From Ceratodon purpureus (lineage: Eukaryota > Streptophyta > Bryopsida > Pseudoditrichales > Ditrichaceae): a DNA stretch of 64,000 bases. Below the pieces are notes generated by a model, which saw nothing but the letters and a program-made list of their open reading frames with translations, did not search any database and was not told the DNA's origin. Shown here in pieces: positions 3,097 through 39,040 of this stretch (the first letter of the stretch is position 1; each line of letters opens with the position of its first letter). A program made the position numbers and the translations under genes. Location: NCBI GenBank assembly GCA_014871385.1, contig CM026429.1, positions 17,340,751 to 17,404,750 on the forward strand. The letters run 5' to 3'.

Positions 3097-3841
3097 GTAA
3101 GCATTCGGGTGGGGGATTTGGGGTTGTTTCTGTTACTGCTATACTTAAGATGATGCTTGAAGATGCGGACCGAGAGGAACTGAGTGAGGAGGATAAGGGA
3201 GAGAAGGTGAGAGCCGTGTGGGAGGTGGAGAGGGATCGGGTCGCGGTCGAGGGGTTTAAGGTTGGGGGAGAGGGGTATACGATGCGGACCGCGAGGGCAG
3301 ATTGTGTGGGAGTGCCTCTGCAGGCGAGGTGCGAGGCGGGGCAAGGCGCAGTGGAGATGTTGAGGAGATCAGATTGAGGTTGCGGCCCACTTGCGGGATT
3401 TTGAGCAGTGGTTCCAGGGGAGGCAAGGCAGCCAGGGGCGCATTCGGAGCCGACACTCCCCCACAAGAAGGGGGAGGATGTGGGGGAGGGGATGCGTGGG
3501 GATCAGATATGGGGGCTGAGATATAGAAAATAGGAGTTGTTTAAGAATGATCCATATTCTTAGGGGAATGGTTTATTTAGATTTCAACTTTTTTTTTTCT
3601 TCTTGTTGCTTGATGTTCTCTGTTGAATTCTTATAATTTGTATACCCTTTGTATTGTAGGAGGTCACAGAGCAATTCATCGCAAGTGACTCTGATGGCCC
3701 AACTCCAGCAGAAACTGAGGTGATTTAATTTAATTTTCCTTCTGTATTGAACAGAGCATAGTATATTGAAATTCCATAATGTCCATCAGTTCCGCGATCT
3801 CAGTGATCAATGTTTCCGACCTCTTGGATTCATTTGATCAG

Positions 3842-4024
3842 CCCTATTGTAGGTGTGACTTAGAAAACCCTACAGGTTTAGATAGTGGACCTCTCGAGGT
3901 CCACTCTCCTCAGTACATGCCTACTTCTCCTGTCTACGAGCCTACATCCCCGGGCTATATGCCTACTTCTCCACGACTTGGTACCCCGCCGATGTCTCCA
4001 CCTTCTCCTTCCTCGCCTATTAGA
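3842..4024 (+). other. Exon with RNA polymerase II CTD-like heptads
   Basis: A phase-0 cassette between CAG (3839-3841) and a GTGAGG donor (4025), sitting between the exons 3660-3719 and 4324-4907. It codes three consecutive heptads: YMPTSPV, YEPTSPG and YMPTSPR. These match the Y-S-P-T-S-P-S pattern of the largest RNA polymerase II subunit at the Y, P, T, S and P positions. A further T-P-P-M-S-P-P-S-P tail follows. The frame stays open to 4168 if the donor is not used, so a short alternative product starting at ATG 3779 (129 aa) is also possible. Confidence 0.5.
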
Positions 4025-7000
4025 GTGAGGAGGCCAGCCCATGTTGTCTTCGCCCTCTCGGCGATATTGCCATGCCTTGTCCAACAGACCAGGCGATTTT
4101 GGAGGAGGCGTAGTTATTGGAACTATAGACAGGCTAGGGAGTATTATAGTCGTGCACCACGCGCATAGTGGCCTGTGCACTACTTATTTCTGCTGCTGAT
4201 GATTGGGTTTACAAAAGAGATGTATCAGTATGAGAAGAAATTCTTCTATTCTTCTTTATACTATTTGATTTGCTTACGATCCTTGTCTTGGAATCAAGTC
4301 TGAATACGTATGACCTTTGACAGGTAACTCAAACACAGGATCAGTTGCCAGTGCCATCTTGTCCTATTGATTTGACGAATGCAGTGGACAGTGAATTGGG
4401 ACATAGGAAACAGCTCAAAATGGACTCTATTGGCGTCATCAACGACCTCCGAATACTCCCAAAGACGAAGTCCCGTATCCTAGTTCCCCTTTGCAGGATG
4501 CTCTCAATGGCAAGAGTGCGACCTGTAGGAGAAATGGGAGTTCAACATTTGGAGCGAGAGTTTGTCAATGGATATAGAGATGGAGACCGGGTCATGTACA
4601 ATTTCATGTACAACCACGAAGAGAAGACAGCCGATGTCACTGAGGAGATCAAGGCTGACTAGAGCCCTTGTTGGCAAAAAGTGAATGATGTTTTCGAAGG
4701 TGACCTATTGGCCGATTCTGATTGGAAGGAATTCTCTGGGAAGATGTTCTATGTCTGGGAAGGTAACCATTGCCTTGCCGCATGGTACAGACATATCAAC
4801 AATCATCATAGCGAAGATCCAGCGTGGCACATCTCCGTGCATTGCATTGTTCTTGACCCACGCGCTCATGTGGGAAACCTTCTTCATGCCATGCACGACA
4901 TCAAATGGTAAGAATTTTATCCCTATTTTATGTCCCCACTTCTTTAAAGCTGCTTGAACTTGCACTTCACGCCTTTAATTAACTACCATCTTTTCGAGCA
5001 GGTCTACAGAAAATGATCACGTGAAGAGTAATCTTCTGGTAAAACTTTTTCGTATTCGCTCTTTTGGTGTGATGAAATTGGAGGAATTCAAGGATCTGCT
5101 CACAGCGGAGGAGTACCAATTGTTTTTGAATCACAAACCATCAATTCCTGGATGGTTTACTTTGCCAACCAAAGTCTTTATCGCATTTCTATATCGTGTA
5201 AGCACTTCTTCCCCCCCCCCCCCCTCACGCTTCTAAATGACATGATTTGCCCTGCTCTGTACACTCATAAGTTGATAATTTTATTTCCCAGAGAGAAATC
5301 GTGGCTGCTTCTGACGAAGCTGCCTAGATCTACAAGGAGAAAACACCCATTCCAGAGCAAACTGCGGCAGGTGTTTGGGATGCCATGTCTGCCGCTTCAA
5401 CCAGCATGGTCGACACCATTAAGAAGGACTTCACCAAGTACCTGGCCATTGCCAATCCCAAAAACGGTGATGACTTCCTTGCGGAGGTGAGTTTCTTGAC
5501 ATTTCTACTTTAGTTGTTCGATAAGTACTTAAAAAATCTAATCTTCCCGTTCATGAAATGTTCATTTCCCAGATCAATCGGCATTACAGTGATTTTGCCA
5601 AGCCGGAGATGACAGTGGAGAAGCTTCAGAAGATTGTTCCTGCAGCTGTTGATGCCAAATTCAAAGCGCATTGGCTAAGGTGGTGGAACTCTTCACCAAG
5701 TGCATGACAATCTTACAGATTTCTGCCCCAAGAATTTAAGGAGGCCGACCTCGACCCCTGGTTGAACAAGGCAACATTTTGGGCTGGGGTATAGTTCCTT
5801 CAAACTTCGTAATAATCACTATAACCACTTCTTCTTTGTCCCATGTCAATGTTTACCTCAATGAATTTACCTTTGTGTTGGAGGTGGAGGATGCTGTTAC
5901 CCGGGAGTTTGATGACATTTGTAAGACCGAGAACCTTATCAACAAGTGGAAGTCCTTTCCGGGAGTGTTGCGGCCCGACGCATATGTAGAGAGTTGGCGT
6001 ATTCTCCTTTGGGAAAAGGCATTCCCCTCATTTCTTGGTACCCGCGCAGATAAGGCTTTCGATAAGAAGTCTGATTTTTCCAATTTTCCGGGAGCTGCAA
6101 ATGTTGTCAAGCGTGTGACATACCGGTATGACATTTCTGATCTATGTCTTCGTATCTTATTTCCTTTTTGCTTTTATACAATGTCAATAAAATGATTCTG
6201 ATCTATGGCAGTTGAACTTCATTAGGTACTTCAAGAGAGAGCTGCTTTCAAAAGGTGCAATTGCCACTGAGAAGTTCCCCCGGTACTTCGCCGCGTGAAT
6301 TCAGAAAGGCTCTAATCAGTGTATCTATACTCCTCTGCAGTTGAAGAGGTACAAATCGTCGCACCTAGAAGCTGGTTGTTGGTACCTGGATTGCATTCGA
6401 GGTTTCGTTATTGAGTCCAAAGCGGAGCTCAAATCTGAGCTTGATGGAGGATCTTCGGCTGTTGAGGTTTCTGGAGACGGTTCAGATGAGGTCGAAGGCC
6501 TGCAGGATCAATCATCTACACCTCCACCGAAGAGAGCGAGAGCGCGGCGACTGCGAACTCTGGGATCGAAGTCCCAGGCCTCACAGGATACTGGTGGAAA
6601 GTCTTCCGCACCAGGGAAGGAGGCACCCAACGCTTCTCCATCTGCAGACGTCCCAATACCAACTTCGACCACTACGAATGCGCCTTCATCCATTAGTGCT
6701 TCTGAGATCACCAGAAGTCTCATTGAGCAGAGGAAGGCAAAACTCTTTCCTCAAACCACTTCTTCCGCTGGAGGTTTGATTTCCACACATGTTTCCGTCT
6801 TCAACTCATCTGTGGATTCAATGTTGCGACCGAATAAGAGATTGGAGATAACAGGTGGCCACCCAGATTGGATCAAGACTCAAGACTTTATTCGCAAGGT
6901 ATGTTCCGTTCTTTAGACATTTCTTGGATACATCCACCTCTACTCATTTTATAGTTTCTAACTCTGCTTTCTTGTTTCCTCAAGTTTAGAGCAGGCCGCC

Positions 7001-8630
7001 AAAACATAGTTCCAGACCGATGCAAACAAGAGAACCATCTGGGAGTCGACTTGATCATTGCCCACATCCCTGAGAATCTTCCCGTCCCTTCCGTTTCCGA
7101 TCCTCCCACGAGTATTCCGCCTTGGAACTCTCGCTATAAGGATTATGTGTACGACATCTTCCATTTTGCAGAACAGTACTTGCAGAAAGATGGTGCCCTC
7201 TGCCTCATCTACAATAGTGATCAGAAGCTGGCTAAGGATATCAAGGAAGAAGCTGAGGGTGGTGACTTCGTGCTTTACAAGGACTGGTGGGGCGTCAATG
7301 TACTTGGCCTGACTTCTCATACAAACCCCGAGAACTTGGTAATTTCATCAAAACATTTCCTTCTCTTTACTTAGTGATAACCCTTCTTCTCATTTATACT
7401 CACTAGTTTTGCTTGACTGCAAACTATTCGGTTCTGGATTCGCGTCTACGTTCGTGGTGACAGTGAGCCATCTAATTTCTCCTTCTAAAGGAAGAAATCC
7501 CAGTTGGTACATGGGGTCCTCAACATTACCGAAAGTGATGCCATTTTCAACTAGACCGATGCGGAGTCGCAACAAATGAATGGGGACATTCCGTGGAGAG
7601 GGCCAAGGGAGAAAACCGATGAGATGATGCAGAGCATAATTGGAGAGCTTTTGAAGCCTGGAGACATAGTCCTCGACTGGAATGCCGGAACAGGTAACTA
7701 TTCATACATATGTCTGCTTCATTTTTCCTCTCATTTTTTCCACAGTTTCTAATTTCTTCGTTACTCTCCGAGTTTCAGGGGCTTCCATCAAGGCTTGCCA
7801 GGCTATTGGTCGTCACATTCTAGCTTTTGAGGGTGACGAAGCCATATTCAACGCCATTCTCAAACCGTACATGGCTAGACCACCTCCCATGGGCTCTCCT
7901 AAACATCCTAGGCCGGCAGCAGCAGAGGAAGCGCCTCCAAAGAGAGCAAGACCTGATAAGTGGTTTAAGTCTTTTATTATTTGTGCAATTTATTCAAGCA
8001 TTGCTTCTCTTTGCAACTCTACGTACTCGATCTAACCACTATCGGTTTTCTATTGCAGAGTAGTTGCGGCAACACCGCCACGTGGGCCAAGAGCCGTGTC
8101 CACTCCATCGTGGCGTCTTCATTCCAGCCCGATTCAGCCTTTTATACTTCCGGACTATGCAGAGGGCTTAGCACAAGCGCTTCAATCTGGAGCCCTTACA
8201 TATGTTCCTAGTCGGCCAACTACTTTTGATCCCAGGGCCCTTATATTCGTCGATGACGAGGCGGTAGAAGGAGATTCGGAGTCATCTAGTTCTGAGAGTG
8301 GAATATTTCAGAGTTCGTGTACAAAAATGGACTAGCAGAAACCAAGATGTATACCATCGTCTACTCCATTGCAAACCACTTAAAGTATTCATGATTCTCA
8401 TTTCCATTTTATATTCGTGTATGTAAAGATCTACAATTGCAAGACTTTTTAGCTCTCAATTCTTATGTGTTCGAAATGAAAACCACTTCGGTTTTGAATT
8501 TTTTTTGTTTGCAAATTATATCCAGGACACTACACAACACTAACGTGAACAACTGAAATGCTCAAAATATATAGAATGCTGTAATTACTTTATTTGTCAT
8601 TTAACAACATTTCACATTGCCATATCCATG

Positions 8631-22079: not shown

Positions 22080-24679
22080 TCAATATACCATCTCCTCCAT
22101 AGGTTTTGTCTGCTTGGGTTTTGGTTTCTGATCTTTCGACTTCTTGTTTCCTTTGCTGGGAGGAGACTTCACCGCCGTAAATCCGGGCTTCTCAAAGATC
22201 GCCGCCATGTCGTAGACCATGGCCTCATGAGTCGTCACAGCAACACCCTCGTATGTCCAAGCTTGCAGAATTGCAGTACCCTTCACGCCGATACCCACCC
22301 ACCCCAGGCCGGCTACCGCCACGTCCACAGAGCTGTGCTCCCAAGAATCTCCCGTCACCGTGACCCTCCTCGGTACCCACCGCCCTATCTCTGCAGCTCG
22401 CTCCTTGTCCGCTGGTGGCTGAGGAAACATGGAACCAGTATTATCAGCTCAAAGGAGAGCACAGTGCACGCATTCACTACACAAACCTAGCAGACCAGCT
22501 CATTCAGAGTACATATTCGGACAACCAAATATAACTTAACGCTCCAGAATAACATTTCCCATGAACACTATTCTTCTAGAGAAGGTACGAGTGGCAGGAA
22601 AACTAAAACATGATTCGCCTGATCACATCACCTCTCCGAGTTGAACAGAAAGGAGACACATACCTTCAATCGATCACCGAGGTGCTTCTCGAACAATTCC
22701 TCAGCCTTCTCTGATTTCCCCATGTGACACGGCAGCTGGGCAGACGCCCACACTGTTACGTAGATGCTCTCAGATGGGGCTTCCACCACGTCCAGTCTAA
22801 ATAGTCCTCCTACGTGCACCGAACTACCAATCTGTTTCAAGTCCAACATCCAACCCATTCACCACTTACATTGAGAGAAGAAAGTGCTGGGAACCCTACT
22901 AAACGATGGCAATCTTATTGAGAAACTACCGCAATTAACATGTGTTTGGGCCTTCAGATGTGGCAAGCAATGTGGCACAGGTGCAGCAACTCCTCCGCCT
23001 TTTTCCTATGCTAACTGCCTACATGGTTTAACCTATATGTGAAACAGGTTCGTAATTAAATATTAAAGGGGACGCAATACGCAATGATGACTCGATCTTA
23101 CCTTCACGCGGAACGTTCTCGGCTTCAGCTCCTTGCGCACTTCTACCAACTTTTGCTCCTCCCGATTCAGCTTCGTGCTCAGTTGGTGCGGGTGAATCAG
23201 GCCCGGAGTGTCGAACAGTCTTGCCCGAGCTGGCAAGATTCCTTCCAATTTCAGTACCCCAAGTGTAGTCCCCGGCACGGCTGCCTCCGTCAACGCCGTC
23301 TTCTTCCTCTTCTCTCCTGCGAACTTCGCCAATGAGTTGATCAGGGAAGACTTGCCGGCATTCTGTGCACCCACAACCCAGCAGTCTCCCCGAGGACCGG
23401 CCAGCTGCTTTATGTGCTCTGCCAGCTGCTCCACGCCCCATCCTTTGAACGCACTCACCAGGTGGACGCCCGCCACTCGGGTCACGCCCCCAGATTTCGA
23501 TCTCCGCCGAACCCATTGCTCCAGCCGGTTGGCAGATATCTGCTTTGGCAGCAGGTCGATCTTGTTCATCACCACTAACAGCCTCGGGGTGTTTCCGGCT
23601 TTGCCTTCCTGCCACGCCGAACCCAACTCTTCGTCGGCCTCTGCCAGCACTTCGGCGGCTTTTCGTGGAAACGAGCCATCAAAATCCGATCCGTCCACCA
23701 CCATCAGGACCACGGCTCGCCTTCCATACGCCTTCTTCAATCGTGTACCCACCACGCGCTCGAAGTCAAAATCGGGAAGCAGATTCTCCACGCTCTCATC
23801 CTTCACCTTTCCATAGTTTCGCAAAGCGTGACAGCGGGCGCACACCACAACTTTCTCTTCGTCTTCCTCTGCTGGGTCCTGCGCCCCATCTTTCTTTGGC
23901 CGATGCTTGCTGCTCAGTATCTCGGCCCAGGCATCCTTCCCTGCCTGCCTGTCACCCCCAACCTCGTTCCATTCCGTCGCAACGCTAAGTCGACTGTCGA
24001 TGTCCATAAGCTCTTCGTCATCTTCCTCATTCTCGTCAAGCGTAAAATCCGACTCGTCTAATTCAGCTCTTCCTTCGAACTCACCCATATTGGTCCCCAA
24101 TTCCTCCAGCTCATCCTCATCAAGTTCGACATCTTCCTCCAATTCATCGTCCGCCTTTCCCAGAATGGTGGGCATTCTGAAGTACCCCGGTCTACTCGGA
24201 TCCTTGTCTTGCATGTAAACCCCACAACCAGGACAAGCCAATTTTTCCAAGAACTTCTGCCGGCGTCTCTCAAAAGACGCATCGCTATCTACAGCTGAAC
24301 CCGGTTTCGAAAAATCTACTGTCCCGAGCTGCTTACTCCTATCACTAGCCCTAGCCCCGCCCTCTGAACTACTGCTAAACTTATGGGAGCCAGTGAATGG
24401 CCCACTGAAGGCAATCCTTGATGTCGGAGACGACCTAAACCTATCTGCAAAACCCAATGCAGTAGACACAACTGGGCTCTCAGCAAACTCACCATGTCCA
24501 AGTCCGAGCAAGCAATATTTGTAGCATTCCTGCCTCACGGATTTTCCCAAACGTGTGGAAGCATAGAACCTGATCATCCGGGAAGAAGGAGAGACGATAC
24601 CGCCCTGAGCCCATTGCAATGTCCTCGCAGCAGCGTGGCAGGACGTGCATCCCGACACTGTCCGAGCCAGGCAGGCCAT
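22080..24679 (-). CDS. BPG2: BPG2-like circularly permuted GTPase, plastid-type
   Basis: Three phase-0 exons on the minus strand: 24679-23102, 22831-22664 and 22418-22080 (stop TGA), about 694 aa. The first about 60 residues look like an organelle transit peptide. A split zinc site follows: C-P-G-C at about 149-152 and C-A-R-C at about 280-283, separated by a very acidic insertion. The GTPase motifs are in permuted order: G4 N-K-I-D (372-375), G5 S-A-F-K-G, G1 G-A-Q-N-A-G-K-S-S (437-445), G2 P-G-T-T and G3 D-T-P-G-L (490-494). This order and the flanking sequence fit the YqeH family, and within it BPG2 rather than NOA1. In Arabidopsis BPG2 is a chloroplast protein needed for plastid rRNA maturation and linked to brassinosteroid and light responses. 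The C-terminal exons carry the expected A-G-L-G-W domain. Confidence 0.9.
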
Positions 24680-25460: not shown

Positions 25461-25800
25461 ACCATGGCTTTCCCCCATGTATGTGTTTCTCGAAATTGGG
25501 TTGTCGGATCCAACAGCTCATTTTTGCCATCACCAACTTCCGGCGGAAATGAAAACCCGAACACTCCCCCTCCCGCTTGCCCTCTGGCCCCGCCAAATAA
25601 TCCCCCCCCCCCAATCCTACGATGCCGCGTGGCCCCTTCACCAAGCAACCCGGTCAGCACACATATGAGGACAAGGACGATGCTTTAAAAATCTAATATC
25701 AGGTTCAGAGTGTGAGCCACGGCCCCTGCCCTGCCCATGAGCCTATCCTCGAGCTCCAACCCCTTGTCTCGCATGATGACTCGCTTCAACTTGAAATTTA
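25461..25800 (+). repeat. Direct repeat, copy 1 (flanks SIM gene cluster)
   Basis: About 340 bp, nearly identical to 32318-32660 in the same orientation. It starts ACCATGGCTTTCCCCC, continues through GCCATCACCAACTTCCGGCG and GGCCCCGCCAAATAATCC, and ends TGACTCGCTTCAACTTGA. Weaker similarity continues beyond it: the ACTTA-GATTTAGTAACC segments at about 26160-26260 and 32870-32970 match. The repeat contains the first copy of the two-part motif (25469-25516). Confidence 0.8.
25469..25516 (+). promoter_or_regulatory. Two-part motif, copy 1
   Basis: TTTCCCCCATGTAT, then TGTCGGATCCAACAG starting 33 nt after the first T. Confidence 0.55.
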
Positions 25801-26660
25801 AAAATTTAATTTTACCACCCACCTGGGCTACACCCTACAGAGCAGCATAGCACCTGGGGTCGGAGGCCAGGATTTTTTTCATCTTGTATATTAGCATACT
25901 TGATTTGTACTTAACATTTTTAGTTTGCTCATGCTGATTTTTGAGTTTACCATCATGGCATGAGATTGTCAATTACCTTCTATAAATTACTGGCTTCATC
26001 TTCTACAAGAATGTCTTTTACAAAGCATCCTCTTAAACCAACTGTACATCTATGATTTGACAAAGGTATATTATCAAATAGATTATGGATAATCCACAAT
26101 ACCATCAAGCTTGGTTGGTGAATGTAGTTTAAACGAATTCATTTTATTTTATGATATGAATTGCTTATGAAGGTGCAGAATGTCTTATGCTTAGGTTGTG
26201 AAGTTCTTCTCAACTTACGATTTAGTAACCGTAGAGAACTTTCTAACATAGGTTATGATATGGTGGAGATGCATTTTAAATCTAGAATATCTTTGAAAAT
26301 AATTACAGAAGTTCTTCTTAATTTACGAGTTCATTTGAATATGTCATTTTCATGTCATTTTATCCCCATGTGCCTATGATTATTACTAAGTCGCTGCCAT
26401 GACAGTAAATGCAATTGTTGTTCAGCCAGAGAAAGTGACCATGATATCTTCTTGTAATCTACGTGAGCAAGTTCTCTATTAAACTTGACCGATACTCACA
26501 ATTACGGACCGTGGGAGAGTATCAATCCACGCTCAACGCATTGAAAGAAGCACATTCAAAAGCTAATTCTTAGCCTTCCAGTACATTCAGGAGCCATTCG
26601 AAATCTGCACATTCAGGAGCCAAGCCTGGGCGGGAATACGTCGAAGTCGGATACCAGCAT
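25801..26660. other. AT-rich spacer, no gene
   Basis: Nothing coding was recognised. It includes the diverged extension of the direct repeat (about 26160-26260). Confidence 0.4.
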
Positions 26661-26674
26661 GGTCTTGCAACGGG

Positions 26675-26722
26675 TTTCCCCCGTGTATGCCATGTCCAAA
26701 AAGCACTTGTCGGATCCGACAG
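26675..26722 (+). promoter_or_regulatory. Two-part motif, copy 2
   Basis: TTTCCCCCGTGTATG, then the perfect dyad TGTCGGATCCGACAG at 33 nt, about 450 bp upstream of the ATG at 27172. Downstream similarity (GTTCAAAGATGGGGGAA) is shared with copy 3 (GTTCCAAGATGGAGGAA). Confidence 0.6.
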
Positions 26723-26912
26723 TACTCTTGGGTGGAGTTCAAAGATGGGGGAATCCAAAAATAGCTGAACGGATCTGCCTGGTTGAATGGCTAGGTAGGT
26801 GTCTAGGTCGTCGATGTTGGTGAGTGGTTGCTAGGATTTACAGCGGCGGTGGCTCGCGGTGGAGCCTATCCTCGCAACAAAGGCTGCTCAGCAAATTTCG
26901 GAGGCTTTTTCC

Positions 26913-26987
26913 CTTGAACATCTCACCGAGCTCTCTCTCTTGAACATCTCACCGAGCTCTCTCTCTTGAACATCTCACCAAGCTCTC
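26913..26987 (+). repeat. Tandem repeat in the leader of the gene at 27172
   Basis: Three units of CTTGAACATCTCACCGAGCT plus CTCTCT, the last with one change. Confidence 0.75.
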
Positions 26988-27171
26988 ACACCTCTTACAC
27001 CGTCGCGAGCTCTCACACCTCACTATTCTTCCACTGTGCGCTCACACAAACAACAGCTTGCGGTCTCACATCTGTTTCCAAGCTTGTGCCGAACTCTCAC
27101 AACTCATTTTCAGATCTCATCAATCTTACCGAGAGCTCACTCTCATCGATTGTTAGTGTAGATCTTCCATC

Positions 27172-28311
27172 ATGGTCTTCACCCAAGCCCAACGCGCTGT
27201 GATGCAAGTGGAGCACCTTGAAGACGAGCAACACCTATCAAACTACAACTTTGCAGACGATCAAAATGCCAGGTACGTAATGCATAGACTCTTGTCCACT
27301 TATTGCAATAGAATGCATCACGAGTCTAGGCCGTGTGGCAGAGGTGGCTGCTTAGTGTGATCATTTTGGATCCTACTGTTTCTTTGCCAGCGGATTGCTC
27401 ATTATCTAGCTTCATGTAAATGATTGAGTTTATAGCCCATGACGAGGACCAGGAGGTAGAGTAGTAGAGAACAAGGAGAAGAGAGAGTGACAAAGAGATG
27501 AAAGTAGAGGAGAGAGGGTCAGGGAGTTCCGAGAGAAAGAGAAAGGGATAGGGAGATGCGAGTAGAGGAGAGAGGGTCAGGGAGTTCCAAGAGTGGAATA
27601 GGGGGTGTGATGGGGAGATAGGGAGAGGGAGTGCACGTTTTTGTTGAAAATTATTCTTAATTCTAATAGTCTGCAGGAGATCCGAGGAGCATCTTCTCGC
27701 ACTATAGGCGGCTGATGCTGATTTTGCCATTCGAGCGGCTTGCCTGGATTTCCAGCTTTTACCACCTCATGAAGAGCACGCAAGCAGGCATGTAGAGCAC
27801 ACCAGCAACCGCAAGACGAAGAAGCCAAGGTAAGACACTCAAATTCGAAAATTCTTTGTGAATAATGTTCAAATTGTCAACTTTTAAATTTTGACTGACT
27901 TATTTACTTTATTCTAATTGAATCAGAATCTCACTTGAGCCGGCATTCTCGGCAACATTGTCTCCAAAGGCTTTAGCGTTGCCTGAATATTCACCCGGAG
28001 AGGGTGAGATTACTGAATCCTCTAATGAGTCAGAGGATCTGAACTTTGTAGTTAATGGGTTGGATGGGAATACAGTTGCCTTTACTCTCTCGATGTTTGA
28101 AGGTGGTCTCCCCCCTTGGGCAGAAATGATGATTTCCAACAACTAGGCATGGATTGAGCTAGCTGATTGCCCAATCGTAGACCGAGAGACTGGAGACATG
28201 ACAGAATGGCTCGAGAGCGTTCGTGAAGACTCAGATTGCGTAGAGATACCTCCTCAAGCGGAGAATTCGGTTCATATAGTAATTTGGCTTAGCGATAGCG
28301 ACTCAGAGTAG
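27172..28311 (+). pseudogene. SIM-tailed accessory gene, interrupted copy
   Basis: Three exons with agreeing phases: 27172-27272 (ATG; donor GTACGT), 27677-27829 (donor GTAAGA) and 27927-28311 (stop TAG), 213 codons. The frame is broken by two in-frame TAG codons (27705-27707 and 28144-28146). The C-terminal exon resembles the protein at 30156-30590. Both have a D-x-[IL]-N-F-[FV]-V strand, then L-P-P-W or F-P-P-W, and both end in a hydrophobic-acidic tail, here VIWLSDSDSE. That tail looks like a SUMO-interacting motif. The function is otherwise unknown. AATAAA at 28415-28420 could serve polyadenylation. Confidence 0.5.
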
Positions 28312-29345
28312 TATACTAGGCTTTTCACCTTTTTGTTAGTATTATAGTCTAGTGTGTTCTATTTGTACTACATATATTTCTATGCATTCACATTATCTCA
28401 TGATTTTCATTATTAATAAATATATGTATATCTCCTATAGGTCTTTTCAAATACAAAGCGCTTCATTTAGTCTTTCTTAATGTTGTATGTTATTCATTAG
28501 GGGAAAAATGGGGTCACAGGAGGGCCTTGTAAGACAGCCCGGATTAGGTGAGCTTCCTGCCCGCTGACACTTCTCTGCGAAGTCTCATTGGTGGATATCC
28601 TGCCCGCTGACAACAAAATTCGCCCCGCTGACAACAGGATTCGCCCCGCTGACAACAGGATCCGGTACTGTCCAATGGGGTGACAACAGTGGGCACACAG
28701 TCGGTGACAGTGTCATTACTGCTTATATTGTTCAATGGGGGGGTGGGGTGGGGTGGGGTGGGGAAGGGAAGCGATTGGCTGGACCCTCCAAATGCCAACT
28801 GCTGGCACTGCTGGCAGCATTTGGCAACCTGCTGGCACCATTGGTGCGAGCAGTTAAAGTGCACGGGCATGGCAAAAATTCAGGCACATATTTCATGGAA
28901 AAGGCCCTTAGGAGACCCCAAACTTCCCCTAATGTGTATTGTTTTTGCAAACATATCTTCAAGTGCAATTGATCCAAAAAAACTAGACATCAAGAAAGTA
29001 AACTATTTCAAAATTAGTTATTGGATCGACAAAATATATATATGTATCTTAATCAATTTCAAAATAGGGCCGTTAGTTGAAGTCACTATTTACATATATT
29101 TCTTGGCATGTATTATAACATTCAATTTTTGCAACATAATTCAATCTATATTAACCATTAATATGGTTCCTATGTGTATAATAGAACAATCATCTATACA
29201 TTAATAAAAAGGTTGCGTTGAACCTTGGGCTACAACACAAGTTTAAAATCAAGCCGCTTGCTCATACACCCCCCTCCCAAGTGCTGGTCATCTTCTAAAA
29301 GTGGATATACACTGAACCCCAATACCTCAAGGGTCTCATATGTGC
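28312..29345. other. Spacer with tandem repeats
   Basis: It contains a 21-bp tandem repeat (28605-28665) and a G-rich GGTGGGGTGGG tract (28737-28765). No gene was supported. Confidence 0.4.
28605..28665. repeat. About 21-bp tandem repeat
   Basis: CCGCTGACAACA(A/G)(A/G)ATTCGCC is repeated about three times, with GCCCGCTGACA half-units upstream (from about 28558). Confidence 0.7.
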
Positions 29346-29393
29346 TTTCCCTCGTGCATCACCATTTGGAAAAAGGGCTGTCGGATCCGACAG
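29346..29393 (+). promoter_or_regulatory. Two-part motif, copy 3
   Basis: TTTCCCTCGTGCATC, then TGTCGGATCCGACAG at 33 nt. The dyad is extended to AAGGGCTGTCGG and its perfect inverse, so it could form a hairpin. Confidence 0.6.
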
Positions 29394-29572
29394 CCCTTTT
29401 AGTTCATGTTCCAAGATGGAGGAAACCTGAAATAGCTTGGCACGCTCGCCAGTGAGAACAAGCCGCTAATGCTTAGAGCTTAGGCTATAGGCTCTAGGTT
29501 CACACGAATTTACTAGCCCATTATGCATGGGGCTATTTACGAGGCAAACAACTTTGCTGCAATTGTAAGATG

Positions 29573-29619
29573 TTTCCCCCAAATTTAGCTTCCAAAAATC
29601 TAGCTGTCGGATCCGACAA
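29573..29619 (+). promoter_or_regulatory. Two-part motif, copy 4
   Basis: TTTCCCCCAAATTTA, then TGTCGGATCCGACAA at 32 nt. It lies about 215 bp upstream of the TATA box at 29832. Confidence 0.5.
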
Positions 29620-29831
29620 CAGATTTTGCATGGGCGTTGTCACTGGGGATACCATCTCCTTTACGTTGGCATAGGTAAGTTTTTTAATTGGTTTTGAAAT
29701 AAATTATTGATTCTTCAAATAAGATTTTTATGGTGAGTCATGTTCCAGTTGCTCATTATTCAAGTTATGTCCACAATGTCTTGGAACGATGGTTGTTGTG
29801 GGTTCCTAGTACCACAACCTTTCCCTACACC

Positions 29832-29839
29832 TATAAATA
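29832..29839 (+). promoter_or_regulatory. TATA box of the SIM gene at 30156
   Basis: TATAAATA preceded by CTACACC and followed by a CT-rich leader (CTCTTCCACTCCCTTC). It lies about 325 bp before the ATG, so a 5'-UTR intron (acceptor TTGTAACAG at the ATG) is likely. Confidence 0.65.
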
Positions 29840-30155
29840 CCGCTCTCTTCCACTCCCTTCACACATCTCTCTTCTTCTGAGTTGCACTTATCCCATTATG
29901 TTCCCTTTCTTCATTTTGTATTTTGTTTAGTGCTTTGCAACTTTGGAAACTCCTCCTTGTCTTCTCCCATATCTCGGTGTAAGGTCATTACATATAGTTA
30001 GAGTGATTTTTTGAATTTCTAATGTGTGAGCAATATTTTGGAGCTTGGCTTAGAGTAGCAGTTTGGCGTCTCAAACATGCATTATTTATCTCTAGTAAGG
30101 TTTTACTGAATTTGTTTCATTGCTGTAATAAATATATATGATCTTCTTGTAACAG

Positions 30156-30590
30156 ATGGCTGATCCTCTGTTGCCTAAGACACCATCGCCAAAGTGTTCT
30201 CAGCGTGCCACTAGAGACATGGCGACCTTACCTATGCCCAAGTCTCTCTTCCATGACAACACCGACGACCCTAGACCTCGTACTTCGGAAACCAAGCCAG
30301 AAGATACCATCAACTTCTTTGTTGTTGAAGGTCCCCGCCAGTCTGTCTTGTTTGAAGTAGAGAACTTGGATGATCCTTTTCCCCCTTGGCTTAACTCTTG
30401 GATGGCAAAGGACGTTACAGGAGACCAAACCGACATAGAGCTATGCCACTGCTATCCCGGACAGAATTCAAGCTCTGAAACAAGTGGATTCGGAGCTGTC
30501 GCGTGCACTGACAATGTGGAGGATGAAATTACCTCGACGCCGAAGTCAACACCTGAAGTCATCATACTCAGTGATGACGAGTCCGATTAA
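30156..30590 (+). CDS. SIM-tailed accessory protein, intact
   Basis: An open frame of 144 aa whose ATG directly follows a good acceptor (TTGTAACAG), with a TATA box at 29832 and AATAAA at 30742. The protein starts with a Thr-Pro/Ser-Pro segment. It contains N-F-F-V-V and F-P-P-W-L, shared with the broken copy at 27927-28311, and ends E-V-I-I-L-S-D-D-E-S-D. That ending is a textbook SUMO-interacting motif (hydrophobic core followed by serine/acidic residues). No catalytic domain was seen. It is tail to tail with the gene at 31137-31778. It might act as a small adaptor that binds SUMO-modified chromatin proteins (inference). Confidence 0.6.
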   Translation: MADPLLPKTPSPKCSQRATRDMATLPMPKSLFHDNTDDPRPRTSETKPEDTINFFVVEGPRQSVLFEVENLDDPFPPWLNSWMAKDVTGDQTDIELCHCYPGQNSSSETSGFGAVACTDNVEDEITSTPKSTPEVIILSDDESD

Positions 30591-30741
30591 ACTAAGTAGA
30601 GTTCCAACTTTCTTCTCTGTCATTCATAAGTAAGCGGCTATATAGGTTAGCGGTCTCTGAAGCAACTGCTAGGGGTACAAAGAATATGAGAGACAATATC
30701 CAACACAAGTTTTGTATCATGTACTCAAACTCCAATGCAAG

Positions 30742-30747
30742 AATAAA
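30742..30747 (+). terminator. Polyadenylation signal
   Basis: AATAAA about 150 bp after the stop of the SIM gene. Confidence 0.45.
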
Positions 30748-30850
30748 AACATTTATGATTTATATATACTATCTACGTTTGCTTCATCTCTTCTATTTTC
30801 AATTCTCATGTATACCTTGAACAAGGTGACTTCCAAGGTCTCACATGTGC

Positions 30851-30898
30851 TTTTCCCCGTGCATCAAAAGTCCCAAATATGGCTGTCGGATCCGAGGT
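30851..30898 (+). promoter_or_regulatory. Two-part motif, copy 5
   Basis: TTTTCCCCGTGCATC, then TGTCGGATCCGAGG at 33 nt. The right half of the dyad is degraded. The preceding GGTCTCACATGTGC matches the GGTCTCATATGTGC before copy 3. Confidence 0.5.
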
Positions 30899-31136
30899 TC
30901 AAACTTTGAGGAAATCGATAAATACCTCCACTAACAACAACCTCCGCAAATACAACTTATTTAAATCCGAATTTTATGTATAGTTGGAAACATTACAGCA
31001 TGAAGGATGCATCTTGCCTTTTGACCAGTTGCAAAATCTCCATACCTATCTCTTTAGCCAAGTATATCAAAATTGCCAAAGAGGCCATAGCACGAAAAAA
31101 AACAATGAGCAATTGAGCATCTCACAACGCAAAGCC

Positions 31137-31778
31137 CTACATCTTCTTACTCTGATCTAAAGGCTTCCCTAGAACTGCGTTCAAGTGAACCTTCTTTCGA
31201 ATAGGCCATTTCAAATCTCCGAGAGACACAAAAGTTGGAGCGTTGTATCGAGGACGAACGCTCCTTTCGTTTGAAGACGTCCCTGACCCAGTCGTCGAGG
31301 TCGCAGCAAGCGTGTACCCAGGTGGAGGCCCCATCAATTCGGCTGCATAGCTGTTGCGAAGATGGTCTCGCAGTAAAACCTTCTGTTGGAGAGACAACTC
31401 ACTAAGTGGAGTGTTTACCAGATCCTCGTCAATCTCAAACGGAATGTTGCGGTCAGTTGTGAACAATGTCAAAGCCTCTATCCAGAACCCGTATATCATA
31501 CTCGTACCCCACTCATCCTTCCTCTTCCTGGCATCCCGACTCTCCTTGCTAGCGACAACATATGCCGACCAAGCTGGCATGGTGTCAATCAAGCTCATCC
31601 ACTGCTCGTCCGTCTTGCACAAGTTCTCAACAAGGGTCATGTAGTCGTAGCCCCATTCGCGGCTTTCAATTAGTGATCGATTGATTTCCAGCATCAGATC
31701 CGGAAAGATTTCAAACATGGCCGCCTCTGGTGTCACCCACGGCTGGTTGAAGAGGTCACTCACAACCTCAACGTCCAT
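31137..31778 (-). CDS. Conserved accessory protein of unknown function
   Basis: An intact 213-aa frame with a normal ATG (31778). It is mostly helical and charged, with W-V-T-P near the start, then R-D-A-R-K-R-K-D-E-W, P-L-S-E-L-S and a final basic region. The C-terminal 55 residues after G-P-P-P-G are Ser/Thr-rich. No family was recognised. The broken gene at 8631-9194 is a diverged paralogue, and both are tail to tail with a plus-strand gene whose product has a SIM-like acidic tail. The repeated layout suggests they belong to one gene set or element. Confidence 0.6.
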   Translation of the reverse strand: MDVEVVSDLFNQPWVTPEAAMFEIFPDLMLEINRSLIESREWGYDYMTLVENLCKTDEQWMSLIDTMPAWSAYVVASKESRDARKRKDEWGTSMIYGFWIEALTLFTTDRNIPFEIDEDLVNTPLSELSLQQKVLLRDHLRNSYAAELMGPPPGYTLAATSTTGSGTSSNERSVRPRYNAPTFVSLGDLKWPIRKKVHLNAVLGKPLDQSKKM

Positions 31779-32317
31779 TTTGATAAAGAATAGAGGAATA
31801 CTGCCAACCTAGACAGAAATCTATTCTACCTAAACTCAATTGCGATGGGAGACCAAAGTGCCGTAGCTGATAAACAAGTTAGTACACTCCCTAAATCCTC
31901 CACCCATCCTCTTCCAGATATATGCAACATGGTCAGCCCTTGGAGAAGAAGCACTCCCCTTCACTCAAAGCATTTAATTTTGGTTCAATACTCAAGGATT
32001 CCCAGCCGAACTTGCACTTAATTATCAGTAAAATACATAATCATATCGAGCTTTTGATTCGGCCTCTTCCTCAAGACATTACGTCACAATTATTTCAAAA
32101 TCATTACAGTAATCAAAAAAGCTGGTTTCACTGTTTCCACACACTAGGATCTGTAGCATATTTTAAACAATTTAGGATAAAAGGAACCATGCTTCAAATT
32201 ACGAGAGATTCAAATATGGGTTCCCCATCATTCCATGGTTTGAATTGGTACCTAATCCTTACAAAATAATGAGTATCATTAGGGCATCAACCGGGGGCTT
32301 GGATATCACGGGGTAGC
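31779..32317. other. Upstream region of the gene at 31778
   Basis: This AT-rich presumptive promoter region holds no other gene that I can see. The direct repeat copy 2 begins at 32318. Confidence 0.35.
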
Positions 32318-32660
32318 ACCATGGCTTTCCCCCGTGTATGTGTTTCTCGAAATTGGGCTGTCGGATCCAACAGCTCATTTTTGCCATCACCAACTTCCGG
32401 CGGAAAGGGCCACCCGAACACTCTCCCTCCCAATGCCCCTAGGCCCCGCCAAATAATCCCCCCCCCCCCCATCCCCCCCATGCCGCGTGGCCCCTTCACC
32501 AAGCAACCCGGTCAGCACACATAAGAGGACGAGTACGATGCTTTTAAAATTTGGAATCAGGTTCAGAGTGTGAGCCAAGGCCCCTGCACTGCCCATGAGC
32601 CCATGCTCGAGCCCCAACCCCTTGTCTCGCATGATGACTCGCTTCAACTTGATATTTGAA
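32318..32660 (+). repeat. Direct repeat, copy 2
   Basis: The partner of 25461-25800, in the same orientation and offset by 6857 bp. It includes the C run in AATAATCCCCCC and the two-part motif. Confidence 0.8.
32326..32373 (+). promoter_or_regulatory. Two-part motif, copy 6
   Basis: TTTCCCCCGTGTATG, then TGTCGGATCCAACAG at 33 nt. Confidence 0.55.
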
Positions 32661-34337
32661 TTTGAAATTAACCAGGCAACAAATCTACAGTCCAGCTAAG
32701 AATATTTACTTGATGTTTGAAATTATTCTGTGAATTGATTTGGTCGTTTCTATTTTTCAAATTTGGGCCAAGTGTTCTACTTTTCCTTGGGCAGTTATCA
32801 TGAAAATTAGATATTCACCATCTTTAAGTTAGTTTATACGGCAGACAAATTGATCTATATAATATGAAATGAATTGCTTTTGAGATGAAGACTATCTTAT
32901 GATTAGGCTCTGAAATTCTACTCAACTTAGGATTTAGTAACCTGAGAAAACTATCTAACATAGGAATTTAGTATAAGGCCGCAAGGACAAAATTATGTAG
33001 AGACATTCTAGATATTTACCAGCATTTTTCTTCCAAAATTTTCTTTCAATCCCCGCCTGGATTTGATAAAACCGTAATACCTTGTGTGTCTAAAAGGGAA
33101 TATTTGTAACTAACCCGCATGTTTTTTCCACGGTCATAGACCACGGTCATAGGACATTTGAAAATTCCCCACAAATAAGGTTTCCGAAAAAATCTCAGCC
33201 GCCGGAAAATTCTCTGCTCTGGGCTCTGTGCTCACCGCTCTACGCTCGCACACCAGTTTTCCCCAGTCTCTCATCATTGAGGGATGAACTCTGTCACCGT
33301 CGATTGGATGTTTTTTGCTAGTTTTTTGGGAGTTTAAGAGGCAGGTTTAGGATTTCTTGTAATCATTCTACACTAGAGCAGGTAGAGTCAGGGAGATCTT
33401 AGAGCTGTTAGGCGGAGCTGCACCATTGTTTTGGGCTGTTTTGCCTTGATCTATACGATTGTAGACTCCTTTTATTTGTATTTGTATGGTTTAGTTGGAT
33501 TTCGTAGGACTTTGGTGGGTTCGTGAGGGCTTAGGGTTTATTGGTTAAATCCTCCCTTTACCAAGTCAAGAATGTAAAATTTCCATTGCACTCTCTACTC
33601 CTAGTACTAGATTTGAAAGCATTCATTACATGATTAAAGAAATTAATGAAATTAAAGAGTTGGCAAAGGTAAAGTAAACTTTGTTGTAAAAATTATAAGA
33701 GAAAATTTAGTCTTTGAAGTTTAAAATGAACAAAGTGTTTATTTCTTTCAACATTATGCTATTGCATGGTTCAATTATGAAAGTTTTTAAAGCAAAATAA
33801 GAGTCTAAAAGAAATTAACTTCAAGATACCACAGCAGTTTTGTTCAAAAATGATTCTAAAAATTAAAAAAACAAAAAAATTAAAAAATTATGAAGACAAA
33901 ATAATAGAAATAGAATATAATACTTTTTGTAATATTTTGTTATTTCTAAGCCATTTAAGGTCATTTTTATTGATTTCTTGCTAAAAAACAAAAATTAAGA
34001 AATTCAATTTTTGGAAAAGAAATCTTTTTTTTTCCGAAGAAATAAAATTCAATGAGTAGGTGGCAAACTTGCAATTGTGTTACGGTACTATTCTTAATGA
34101 GTAATTTATACTCTTCTATCCTAATTACACTCCAGCTAAAAAGTCTAGCTTTTTTCCAACATCAAAAACTAAATTAATCTTTTTCAAATTGAAAAACCAT
34201 CAAGTTTTGATAAACAAATTATATTACAGGAAAATTACTCCAAATCTTGAGAACAGAGTAAACTACTCTCTCTCCACCTTATGTTGAGATGTCACTCTGC
34301 GCTTGCCTAATTTGTGCCCAAATTAGGAGTACACGGC
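32661..34337. other. AT-rich intergenic DNA
   Basis: It contains the diverged extension of the direct repeat (32870-32970) and copy 2 of a dispersed CT-rich repeat (33110-33260). No gene was supported. Confidence 0.4.
33110..33260. repeat. Dispersed repeat, copy 2
   Basis: The pieces CGGTCATAGG, TTTGAAAA, AAAATTCTCTGCTCT, CTGTGCTCACCGCTC, CGCTCGCACA and TTTTCCCCA are in the same order as at 9660-9780. Confidence 0.35.
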
Positions 34338-35540
34338 TCACTGCCTCGAAGGTAAAGGTAGCAAGGCTCTTGCAGATCTCCACCCACCAAAACAAGCTTC
34401 AGGTTTCTGGGAGTCAATCACAGGTGATGTGTGGATCTCACCTTCCTGCCCCTTGACTTTTCTATCTGAGAACTCGTCGGCACTATCTTTCAGGTCCAGA
34501 ACACCACTAGTAGATCTTCTAGGCAACTTCACCAAATTCAGATCTATCAAAGGACAATTCAGTAAGGAAACAACAGTCAATCCCTTGGACATACCAAGGT
34601 CAGGCAACGCCAACAGATTAGTGCAACTACGCACATACAGATTCTCAAGTGCAGACAAACCCTTCAAGTTGTCCATTCTAGCCAAAAACTCACATCCAAA
34701 AACATCCAAAACCACCAACCTTGCCAAGTAACTCAAGTCTGGGATGCTTGTAATTCAGTCTCCACACAATATAGATACCAGAGGTGTCTCCGATATATCA
34801 CGCTAGATAAATCCTCCACACACATTCCACTCATATCCAAGTAATATAACGTTGATTTTGAACTAAACTGCAGTATTGTCTTCACGCTTCAACTATTCTA
34901 CGCACTGAACACCTTTAAACTTTCGGTAAAAATTGGCCAAATCTCCAAATTGCTCCTCAGTGTCTCTAGCGCTGGAAAATTATCAAGCCATAAGTGTAAG
35001 AGCTTGGTGAGGCCACTGCAATCGAGCACAAACCTTATCATGGTACCTGACATACTAATGTCCGTCAAATCCTTCATCATTGAGATCCATGAACGATCTC
35101 CGATGCTTGTGCCGGACAAGTCCAGATAAGTCAACCTAGTACACGCTTCGATCCCAAGCAGTTCTTCAAAATTCTTTCCACCCTTCAGTATAAGTTGTTG
35201 AAGACCAATCAAGTTGGCAAATTCGCTTATCGCCTTCAGCTTTGCCGCTCCTACCATTGCAAATTTCTTCAGGCACAGAAAATTCACCAATGAAGGGAAC
35301 TCTAGAAGAGAAGTACAAGCCCTCAATTTAATCTCCTCCAACTTGACCAGAGCTTCAAGGCCATCGAACCTCTCAAGGTTTTGGCAATCCAAGAAACATA
35401 ACGTTTTCAACTGTACTGCTTGATTCAGGTTGAGCAAAATGTCGGAACATGGAAACACAACTAACATCCGGATAGCACTGAAAGTGAGCGTAAACTTCCG
35501 TATTGTCACTAGGTTCCGAGTATCGTCCAGGGATTCAATA
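34338..35540 (-). pseudogene. NLR gene, distal leucine-rich repeats
   Basis: Two open pieces (34898-35509 and 34338-34736) code typical plant leucine-rich repeats, for example L-K-T-L-C-F-L-D-C-Q-N-L, L-T-Y-L-D-L-S-G-T-S-I and L-E-N-L-Y-V-R-S-C-T-N-L. They are separated by a frame change near 34750-34890. They continue the NLR fragment at 39033-40640 on the same strand, from which they are parted by a coding insertion. The end at 34338 after a Ser/Arg-rich tail may be the original C-terminus. Confidence 0.6.
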
Positions 35541-38500
35541 GTCCTTCACCAAGTAATTACTCACAATCATTCCGAGCCTTGCCACTCCTCGGATAGTGTT
35601 TCCGGAACGTATCTCTTCGACTCTCTCTCTCTATTACAGCAGGTGTTTCGTCCACAAACCCCAACATTTCGGAAAGGAGACCGCCTCACAACTGACTTAG
35701 AGCACTCTGGTCAGCAGATCACACAGACGACCACTTCCGATCCGTGAGACTACAATGACAAACCAATCCGGATCTGGGAGAACCAGGATCCGATTATCCC
35801 TAGGCGACCCGTGCCACGTTCCGAATCCCCCTCTCACTGAGTGCAGAACCTCTTCAGAAGTTCAGGGAGCCTGATCAAGTACCCCTCGATCCGCTTCGAC
35901 CCTAGCGACGGCTATTCCGCGTGAGGTTGGGTTGGGGATGGAAAGTGAGGCTTCACTCCTACGACAATCCCCTAAATCTTTCCGCTTGATCCCAGTACCA
36001 TTCCGATTCGGGTCTCGTCACAACTCCCATCACCTTCCTATCCGAGCTACAGCGGAACTCTCATATCCTTCCCGGATCATTCACACTTAACTGGAAACCA
36101 CGCACAGTACTTGCAAAAACACAAATACTTTACTGATAAGGAATATAGGGAGAAAACATGCAAAACAAAGACTCGGACTGCATCGCCTTCCCTGTTTAAG
36201 TAAGCAGGGGCTTCCACAAAAGCGGCGGCGCCGGAAGTTCAATCAAAAACCTTAATTCCTAATTATCTACCTAGAATCCTACTTTACGGTTAAACCGGAT
36301 CTACCCTGATCCGAAATCTACTCCTATAAATCCGGAAAGTGACTGACAGTTTCCGTCCGAGGAATCTGTCCCGTCTTCGTCTTCTTATGGCTCTCCTGCT
36401 CTGGGTCCTTCTCCTTCGACCGGGTCATCCGCGGCTCGGATCCTCTTGCCCTTGCTGCCTGCTCCGCCTGACGCCTAGCGCTCCGTTCCCCCTTTGACTC
36501 CTTCGACTTGGTCTCCAAGGAAAGCCGGGTAACGACCCGGGTCTTTGGAGACTTGGGAGACTTGGGCAACATCCTCGGAGGAGGGGTTCCGGATGTCGGG
36601 GTCCGAGTCTCAGTTCCGGCTGTCCCTACCGGGGAGCTAGCGTGAGTATCCGAGTCGGACCCGGAAATTGTAATTGGCCCCTTCTCCTCCGGTTCCTTCC
36701 TCTTCCTCAAAAACATCCGAGCACCTGAAAAGTCAGCAAAAGATTCCTCCACGGGTGTCCTGGTTGGTGTAGGAGTCACAGTCCCGGTCCGGGCTGTGGG
36801 TGAAGGGGTGAGTGCCCCCTCTTGAGTCACTCGGGTACGTCCGGTAGGTGAAATAGATTTCCTCCATTCCGCTCCAGCCACCTCCCCTTGGTGAACCGGA
36901 ATAATCACCGACGAATCTAGTGCTGGGGGAACAACCGGCTACACGGACCGGGTCACCTCTTCCGTAACCGTCTGCTCCTCGGATCGCCTGACAGTGACTG
37001 TAGTCCCCGTCACCTCTGCCTGTCCGGTGGGAATCGCGCAGCCTTGCTGAGCCGTACTGGCTGCGGGTGACGCCTCCTTGGCCTGAACTTCCCGGATCAG
37101 GTCCGCGATCGTCCGAGCCGGTGCGAAGATGTCCGAGTCAACCTCCATTTGCTCCTCAAACCGGAGGTTGCGCTCCATTGGGGTCCTGAACCCCGCACCG
37201 CGAGATTCCCCTACCACGGTCCGAGAGGGAGATCCGGGAAGTCTGGTTCCGACGCTGGGACTTCCGACACCCGGATTGAGCAACTTCCGAATCTCCTTCA
37301 GGATCTGGTTCATCGAGTGCTCGCATTTGGAAAGGATTGTGATAATCTTCTGCCTATTCTCCAATTGAGCCGGCTGCATCACATTCTTGTCGAACAACCT
37401 GGCCTTGTTGACTACATCACCCGGAACTCCCACCAACTTCTGGAGCTCACCCAAAGTCTCCTCCTGCTCAGCATGGAACTTACGGATCTCCTCGCTCTTC
37501 GTCGCCAGTTCCGAGGTAAGTTCCTTCAGCTAAAACTCCAATTGCTTCTTCTCGCTCCGAAGCTTCGGGGCGTCCTTCAAAAGCTCCACCTCTCGGATCA
37601 CCTCTTCCGGTAAACAGCCCCCTAGCGATGTGCAGACTCTCCGGAACAGCGTCTCAATCCGATCGTAAGAGGCCTGCGCCCGATGAGTTTCTTCCCTGAG
37701 TGCCCGGAACGGGTCAACCGGAAATCCTCGCTCGGAACTGACCTCCTTCCGTGTCGTATCATCTCGGGCCGTGGAGGGCTCCGCGTGCTGCGACGTAGCG
37801 CGTTCCGACCGTGACTTAGAATGGGCCTTCGTAGCGCTAGGATTCGGAAGGATCACCGTATCATCTTCCCCTTCCGTGGACGCCATATCCGAGGTGTCCC
37901 CGTGAGGTACGACATCAAACCCTGCCGCAACCTCCTGAAAGGTGAGGAGATTCTTCGCAATCGTATACCTCCCCTCCTCCTTATCCATCAGCAGCCTACT
38001 GGAATGGTATAGGTGGTAGAGAAAAGGGGCGATTGGGGTCGGCTTCTTTCCGATCGAGGGTACCAACTTCTGCACGGTTTTCGCTATGAGTGCAGCCCAA
38101 TTCACCGGACGCTGCTCCGTGTACGCTCCGAAGATGGTGTTCCCGACCGTGATGGTGACCTGTTCCGGTTTCAACGGATACAAGATCGGAACGAGGAAGG
38201 CTAGGACCTCCCTCTGTCTCCTATCCTTGGAGGCGTCTATCACGTATCCGTTGTTCTTATGGATCTTCCCGTGGAACCTATCCTGCACGTACTTATCCGT
38301 CCGGGTTGCCCAAAGGTGTCCGTTCTGTTCGAAGTCGTAAGTTTCCGCCCAATGTTCCGGACTCCACAGAGTGGGCTTGCCCCGGATTGTATTGTCCCAC
38401 CTATTATCCGGCCCCTCTAGGATTTCCGCCACCATCGCCTCATCCCTCAGCAACCAAGGTCGCGACAACAAACCCTCGCACCTCATCCGGGTGAGATCGT

Positions 38501-39040
38501 CAATCAACTCGTTCATCTCCGTCTCTCTCAGCGGAGTGGCGGGGCTGAGGATCTTACACTGAACGTGCAACATAGCTACGTCTCACTTCTCTCCCTTTGC
38601 GATCCGACAGCAAGAAACCCGGCAATCCAACTGCCAGTGAATCGGAAAAGACAAAACACCTCACCGCTCTTTCACTCTCTACTCCTAGTCCGCAAAAAGG
38701 AACTCCAAACCCTAACACTCCCGCCTATATACTCAGAGGGCCATAAACGCTGCGGCGACGCGTAATTGCAGCCGCTACCGTACCGAGCTCGGCATTATCC
38801 GAGCCATGATGACTTCCGCGTCGTTTCGGATCCCAAACGCGGTTATAGTAACGGTCAGTTCTCGGATCGTCAACCCGTTCCAAGTTTTCTCTTCCGAGTT
38901 TCCGAGATCAAGGTTCCGAGAATACTTCCTGCGTTAATTGTTTTAAGGTTTCTGGAGTATCCGGTTTGTGTTAACTCTTAATGCGGCTGGTGTCTAGCTA
39001 GTTTTTACCTAATTAACCAAAAAAATGAAAAATTAATGGA
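35541..39040 (-). mobile_element. Coding insertion within the NLR locus, transposon-like, broken
   Basis: A 3.5-kb block of different composition (rich in CCGGA/TCCGG) separates the two halves of the NLR gene; the edges are approximate. On the minus strand it carries one long frame (36324-38573, about 750 codons, with about two breaks). The first 200 residues have W-S-P-E-H-W-A-E, then V-N-W-A-A-L-I-A and P-I-A-P-F-L-Y-H-L-Y. They recall the putative plant transposon-protein domain found in repetitive plant ORFs. A coiled-coil region and a Pro/Thr/Ser- and Lys/Arg-rich tail follow. I found no reverse transcriptase, integrase, long terminal repeats or terminal inverted repeats, so the class is open. 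It is moderately old. Confidence 0.45.

Follow-up and report, generated by a model that had tools for sequence, protein, structure and literature searches.

Mutator-like elements are characterized by a MULE/IS256-type transposase, a SWIM and/or GCM/FLYWCH-type zinc domain and target duplications of 8-11 bp, while terminal repeats may be present or absent. VANC proteins are encoded by VANDAL transposable elements of Arabidopsis, bind a short motif in noncoding regions of the element and remove silencing marks (PMC5735166, PMC10398659). These motifs often lie in tandem repeats of the noncoding regions, and that of VANC21 has nine bases, YAGTATTAY (PMC5735166, PMC10398659). When we searched the literature for transposon-encoded palindromic sites in Mutator elements, the VANC paper was among the matches listed. 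Subterminal repeats of Spm/CACTA elements, which are restricted to the element ends, are bound by TnpA. The KorB/ParB operators of IncP plasmids and the EBNA1 and papillomavirus E2 sites are dispersed palindromes, placed in promoters and arrays and read by one dimeric protein encoded on the same replicon. Finally, a DNA transposon lineage, Lanisha, has been named by Maumus, McDaniel and Carey, who are said to be the authors of the Ceratodon genome. It is described as a cut-and-paste superfamily similar to EnSpm, with C(2)C and H(3-4)H motifs between the second D and the last E (PMC12730594).

Here, we analyzed a 64,000-nucleotide stretch of Ceratodon purpureus DNA (the window) that contains repeated copies of a mirror-symmetric site of ~80 bp, composed of a box, an A-tract, the 14-bp palindrome TGTCGGATCCGACA, a T-tract and a second box. 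Like the VANC motifs, this short core recurs in noncoding parts of a likely Mutator-type element and in tandem repeats, outlasts the diverging sequence around it and is highly element-specific. The differences are that the VANC21 motif has nine bases, whereas the core here is a 14-bp palindrome within a symmetric site of 80 bp whose outer boxes are fixed, and that no VANC-type protein was found among the element proteins scanned. As in Spm/CACTA, the sites are repeated, element-specific and partly arranged as inverted pairs, but they are internal, intergenic and in putative introns rather than confined to the ends. Dispersed palindromes in promoters and arrays are shared with KorB/ParB, EBNA1 and E2, although those belong to plasmids or viruses and ours are chromosomal copies in a plant. 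With Lanisha, known here by description only, the element has in common that it is a DNA transposon lineage; Lanisha is described as EnSpm-similar, whereas the structure model of the transposase here is nearest to the IS256-family-like ISCth4 transposase, which suggests a Mutator/IS256-like enzyme. A Foldseek search with this transposase returned nothing at E 0.001. In a literature text search, the 14-mer core occurred in no paper, and its inner 12-mer only in works unrelated by title.

A preliminary description of the window had reported six copies of a box followed by a dyad, and all six were found at the positions it gave (boxes at 25469, 26675, 29346, 29573, 30851 and 32326), with 33, 33, 33, 32, 33 and 33 nt, in that order, from box start to core start. 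It had called the motif two-part; however, five of the six cores (25502, 26708, 29379, 29605 and 32359) carry on their right side a mirrored box of the TTCC, TTTCC or TATCC type in the -33 register, and the site is therefore symmetric. Site 1 (25469-25548) has its left box at 25469-25479, the core TGTCGGATCCAACA at 25502-25515 and its right box at ~25539-25548, while site 6 (32326-32405) has the core TGTCGGATCCAACA at 32359-32372 between boxes at 32326-32336 and ~32396-32405. Sites 2 (26675-26754), 3 (29346-29425) and 4 (29573-29651) have exact cores at 26708-26721, 29379-29392 and 29605-29618, left boxes at 26675-26685, at 29346-29356 and from 29573 (32 nt), and right boxes at ~26745-26754, ~29416-29425 and ~29642-29651, respectively. 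Site 5 (30851-30897) is half-degenerate, with a left box at 30851-30861 and a core at 30884-30897 that has two mismatches and a decayed right arm (TGTCGGATCCGAGG); it lacks a right box.

The six copies do not all stand as independent. Positions 25461-25817 and 32318-32674 are a single duplicated segment (89% identity over 359 nt) that includes sites 1 and 6, core 25502 being the duplicate of core 32359, and the flanks of sites 3 and 5 (boxes 29346 and 30851) are 79% identical over 67 nt. The statement that the window holds no further copy was correct for cores with at most one mismatch, but hundreds of cores exist genome-wide. With up to three mismatches allowed, the dyad pattern matched the window 19 times, a number that none of 100 shuffles attained (mean, 2.38). 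The box on its own gave 28 matches against 29.58 expected; because it is not above chance alone, what matters is box, dyad and spacing jointly. Matches to the element gene families F9, F11, F8 and F6 make up the initial 8 kb of the window, but no core with at most one mismatch occurs there, and the element segment at 5.4-9.4 kb of another locus (L036) has no core either, so some segments of the element lack the site.

To describe the architecture, we took 162 dyads from the window together with 40 fetched loci (at most one core mismatch, or two if GGATCC was intact) and used the identity of their flanks to form 22 clusters (<55% ungapped between clusters). The base profile of the 44 half-sites showed the 14-bp core, an A-tract (-9 to -6) and, at about -31 to -25, a box rich in C/G; on both flanks of the core, the box starts 33 nt out and the A-tract lies 6-9 nt out. 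In leave-one-out tests on 19 clusters, 18 of 38 half-sites had the box optimum at precisely -33 (0.76 expected), and control registers in the same flanks reached at most 4 of 38. For the A-tract, 20 of 38 half-sites had their optimum no more than 1 nt off its register (1.8 expected), control registers having been run for the box only. Three of the 22 clusters (window 39082, L033 8263 and L010 1460), whose cores have two mismatches and the last of which also overlaps a neighbor, were dropped beforehand, and window 30884, likewise with two mismatches, was retained. The clusters may have a remote common ancestry, yet this should have kept other registers too, and those were not kept. Left-right identity within one copy exceeded that between copies weakly for the box (reached by 58 of 2000 shuffles) and not at all for the A-tract (641 of 2000), which argues that the symmetry belongs to a shared site and not to a local inverted duplication. 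CpG decay was considered as a sign of selection and dropped, the flank CpG observed/expected ratio being 0.86.

The whole genome (362.5 Mb, 151 contigs) was then searched. Searched as an exact 15-mer, the core had 312 forward and 279 reverse matches, and its reversed control had none. When the gap from TTTCCCNCGTG to TGTCGGATCC was left free over 19-25, all 13 matches had a gap of 22, which puts the start of the core 33 nt from that of the box. TTTCCC followed by the core at a gap of 12-42 (18-48 nt start to start) gave 92 matches (reversed control, 0), and the spacing was 32-33 nt in 72 of the 86 outside the window, or in 24 of 31 when one match was taken per 20-kb cluster. For a second box, TCGGCG, 26 of 36 matches kept this register, which here means a distance of 31 nt. 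The TTTCCC-type box was found chiefly on contig C6 (81 of the 86 matches outside the window), and matches there recurred at 116-117-nt steps and near-multiples. This register, kept genome-wide in a symmetric site, fits the earlier suggestion of selection on box and spacing. The symmetry is also consistent with a predicted dimer site that has further contacts. One ordinary repeat with freely varying spacing had been named as the contrary case; copies are indeed scattered, but they have varied flanks, a single register and shared element genes.

The loci read were sampled from the first 100 listed places of the 591 exact matches, on contigs C1-C4, and 39 of the 40 contained a core with at most one mismatch. 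In 38 of these 39 dyad loci, gene families of a single multi-copy element are present as well, each supported from another locus; because these loci also served to define the families, the count shows that they share a context but does not amount to an annotation made independently. The remaining locus, L011, adjoins both L010 and L012 and consists mostly of a nested insertion that appears gypsy-like by eye. The carrier is likely a giant Mutator-like transposon family. Its ends were not found in the sampled loci, and a left break of similarity in L009 was rejected as an element end, other copies running past it. Among the element proteins scanned, which represent part of the element's genes, none had a Pfam or NCBIfam match above cut-off, and no Pfam match was found in that set to DUF1985, which we take to be the VANC-type protein domain. 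The two proteins above cut-off in one Pfam scan came from the neighboring GTPase and LRR genes.

The tightest gene link is with family F0. In the window, an F0 gene (31137-31778, minus strand; a 213-aa ORF with relatives ~66% identical) has core 32359 ~580 nt upstream of its ATG. Leaving the dyad aside, we searched the genome with the F0 protein, scoring 150 matches of 182 candidates, and examined the 26 that lie where cores were listed (C1-C3, and C4 up to 4.26 Mb). An exact core was located 146-217 nt upstream in 21 of these 26 copies (chance expectation, 0.0005 per gene), a count to which the younger subfamily contributes many nearly identical copies, which are thus not independent. Of the five without a core, one was a fragment, two were decayed and two were nearly full length, one of the latter with an inner stop. 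In the older subfamily, ~80% identical, the exact core was present in four of the six copies of the sampled range. F0 and F1 are read divergently, and at typical loci the core is situated in the spacer between them. When the F0/F1 spacer was compared between two F0 subfamilies, the core was kept at 14 of 14 positions while the rest fell to 44-47% identity, and in a stepwise scan of L012 against L020, windows of at least 75% occurred only at the core; as these spacers come from dyad-selected loci, the footprint is to be read together with the unbiased F0 count.

Family F2 is represented in the window by a 144-aa ORF (30156-30590, plus strand), with cores 29605 and 29379 located 551 and 777 nt upstream. 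A TATA-like box, TATAAATA (29833-29840, plus strand), lies between site 4 and this gene, and the TATA-like scan gave no fixed core-to-TATA distance. Core 30884 of site 5 is situated between the 3' ends of the convergent F2 and F0 genes. The F2 protein ends in VIILSDDESD, a SUMO-interaction-like stretch that we presume to be a SIM (SUMO-interaction motif-like). The remnant of a second SIM-type gene (27172-28314, plus strand), with several exons by eye and an in-frame TAG near 28141, has core 26708 ~460 nt upstream of its first ATG; its piece at 27922-28143 had no family match in a Pfam scan. The preliminary description had tied the site to this SIM-gene cluster, and the six window copies are indeed there, but the site belongs to a high-copy element. 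F2 had 164 genome matches (query, an L018 member), and among the matches listed, 7 of the 33 copies in the sampled range had an exact core within 2.5 kb upstream. The link between the SIM gene and the site is thus weak. One-mismatch cores would add some SIM-family links, for example at L018, L042 and L047.

The most likely interpretation, drawn by analogy, is that the site resembles an operator, as a protein target within a giant transposon, and that it parallels the VANC targets of VANDAL elements. A long palindrome whose outer contacts are symmetric and keep their distance is what a dimer or tetramer needs, and the site would accordingly be bound by protein. An element-encoded dimeric or tetrameric protein might dock on the 80-bp site through the core and the symmetric outer boxes, and the docked protein would open or activate the element genes, keeping them switched on. 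Because the placing in divergent spacers and arrays and the tie to one element resemble VANC targets, the reader is most likely an element-encoded activator or anti-silencing protein; judged from VANC in VANDAL, the effect would be anti-silencing or activation rather than repression. We give roughly even chances to this reading as a whole, that is, to an ~80-bp site of a likely giant Mutator-like transposon, recognized by a predicted dimer or tetramer that is probably element-encoded and opens or activates element genes.

An unlikely alternative is that the transposase itself binds the site. Its structure model contains a GCM-like stretch, and such a GCM/WRKY-like zinc stretch could read the half-site, with the dispersed copies serving transposition more than gene control, as Spm/CACTA subterminal repeats do. 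Evidence to the contrary comes from cores in internal spacers and putative introns, and from their fixed place upstream of F0. It is rather doubtful that the site is instead a host transcription-factor site captured by the element to drive its genes. The palindrome does lie in a divergent promoter region in many copies, and its half-site, TGTCGG, presumably resembles auxin-response elements; however, 38 of the 39 sampled dyad loci are element loci, the last being contiguous with two of them, and an 80-bp register would be unusually long for a shared host site.

The core also recurs in tandem arrays. Two of these, built from unrelated units of 149-150 nt that contain the core or a version of it with one mismatch (in the second array, TGTAGGATCCGACA), were found in L010 (8.3 and 26.6 copies) and L037 (6.6 and 7.6 copies). 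On either side of them are open frames of a gene that has a DGNHR motif and a part resembling N6_N4_Mtase (E 0.0031, below cut-off), and they are probably situated within an intron of this DGNHR/methylase-like gene. It is conceivable, albeit improbable, that the transposon runs a plasmid-like system of global control and identity, in which one element-encoded protein (zinc-domain or ParB/methylase-like) would read the 80-bp operator in gene promoters and in the nucleosome-sized 149-nt intronic arrays, marking every copy as 'self' against host silencing. A ParB/KorB-like operator, whose palindrome would be read by the DGNHR and methylase-like protein so as to mark, group or partition element DNA, is very improbable. 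The palindromic sites in promoters and arrays, the position of the arrays between exons of the DGNHR gene, the motif and the methylase-like match are in its favor, but the structure model of the DGNHR exon (mean pLDDT 35.8) was unusable for a ParB fold, no ParB family match was obtained among the element proteins scanned with Pfam and NCBIfam, and the window's own copy of the gene has no core nearby. Most improbable, and already disfavored, is a passive repeat, the core surviving from a single ancestral repeat that the element carried along without selection: many copies are recent duplicates, as are window sites 1 and 6, but core, box and register persist where the flanks have lost similarity, and two unrelated array units have the core and a 149-150-nt period in common.

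If the reader of the site is encoded by the element, as the comparison with VANC suggests, this would be a plant system besides the Arabidopsis VANDALs, here in a moss, in which a transposon has a sequence-specific regulon of its own. As the site is long, symmetric and of fixed register, its reader should be easily found by DAP-seq. This would allow direct tests of the way in which giant transposons control many genes together and avoid being silenced, also on the sex chromosome, which is rich in repeats.

The six dyad sites clustered in the window were bordered on both sides by apparent host genes. On one side lies a GTPase gene (23063-24679, minus strand; MMR_HSR1, E 6.1e-10), which we take to be BPG2/YqeH-like, and on the other a leucine-rich-repeat gene (34341-35545, minus strand; LRR_4, E 1e-09 for 34901-35509).

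The element, likely a giant Mutator-like transposon family, carries a gene for a transposase-like protein, found at 4646-6829 of the sampled locus L009. The N-terminus of this protein (residues 1-92) is predicted to form a ubiquitin-like domain. The same element also codes for proteins with ends resembling SUMO-interaction stretches.

Another element gene joins a DGNHR part, ParB-like by eye, to an N6_N4_Mtase-like part in which the DPPY-type motif takes the form D[IVL]P[ED]. This gene was observed at L009 8471-9193, L010 5819-7393 and L045 4188-5828, and in pieces at 4321-7713 of the window, where the DGNHR stretch contains an in-frame stop. The element gene family F11 (window 3809-4162, plus strand; L010 8961-9452; L036 8939-9388) encodes repeats like YMPTSPVYEPTSP, which look similar to the heptads at the C-terminus of RNA polymerase II; comparison with the Pfam Rpb1 repeat gave an E of 0.075, a match too weak to pass the cut-off.

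A gypsy-like insertion was flanked on each side by a repeat of ~3.5 kb (L011 1562-5077 and L012 1042-4557), with 99.97% identity between the two places. This repeat contains a 629-aa frame of family F10, and a related frame in the window (36375-38579, minus strand) matched another F10 member at 71%.

At locus L016 (contig C1, 28999400-29001000), a core palindrome lies ~0.5 kb from the contig end, and the stretch there is 99.4% identical to L027 (contig C3, 24568300-24570500). Two variant cores, TCTCGGATCCGAGA, occur at L033 8263 and 8305, spaced 42 nt apart, with both arms altered and the palindrome still perfect. Outside the window, 81 of the 86 TTTCCC-type sites were located on contig C6, which is at least 107 Mb long and may be the sex chromosome.
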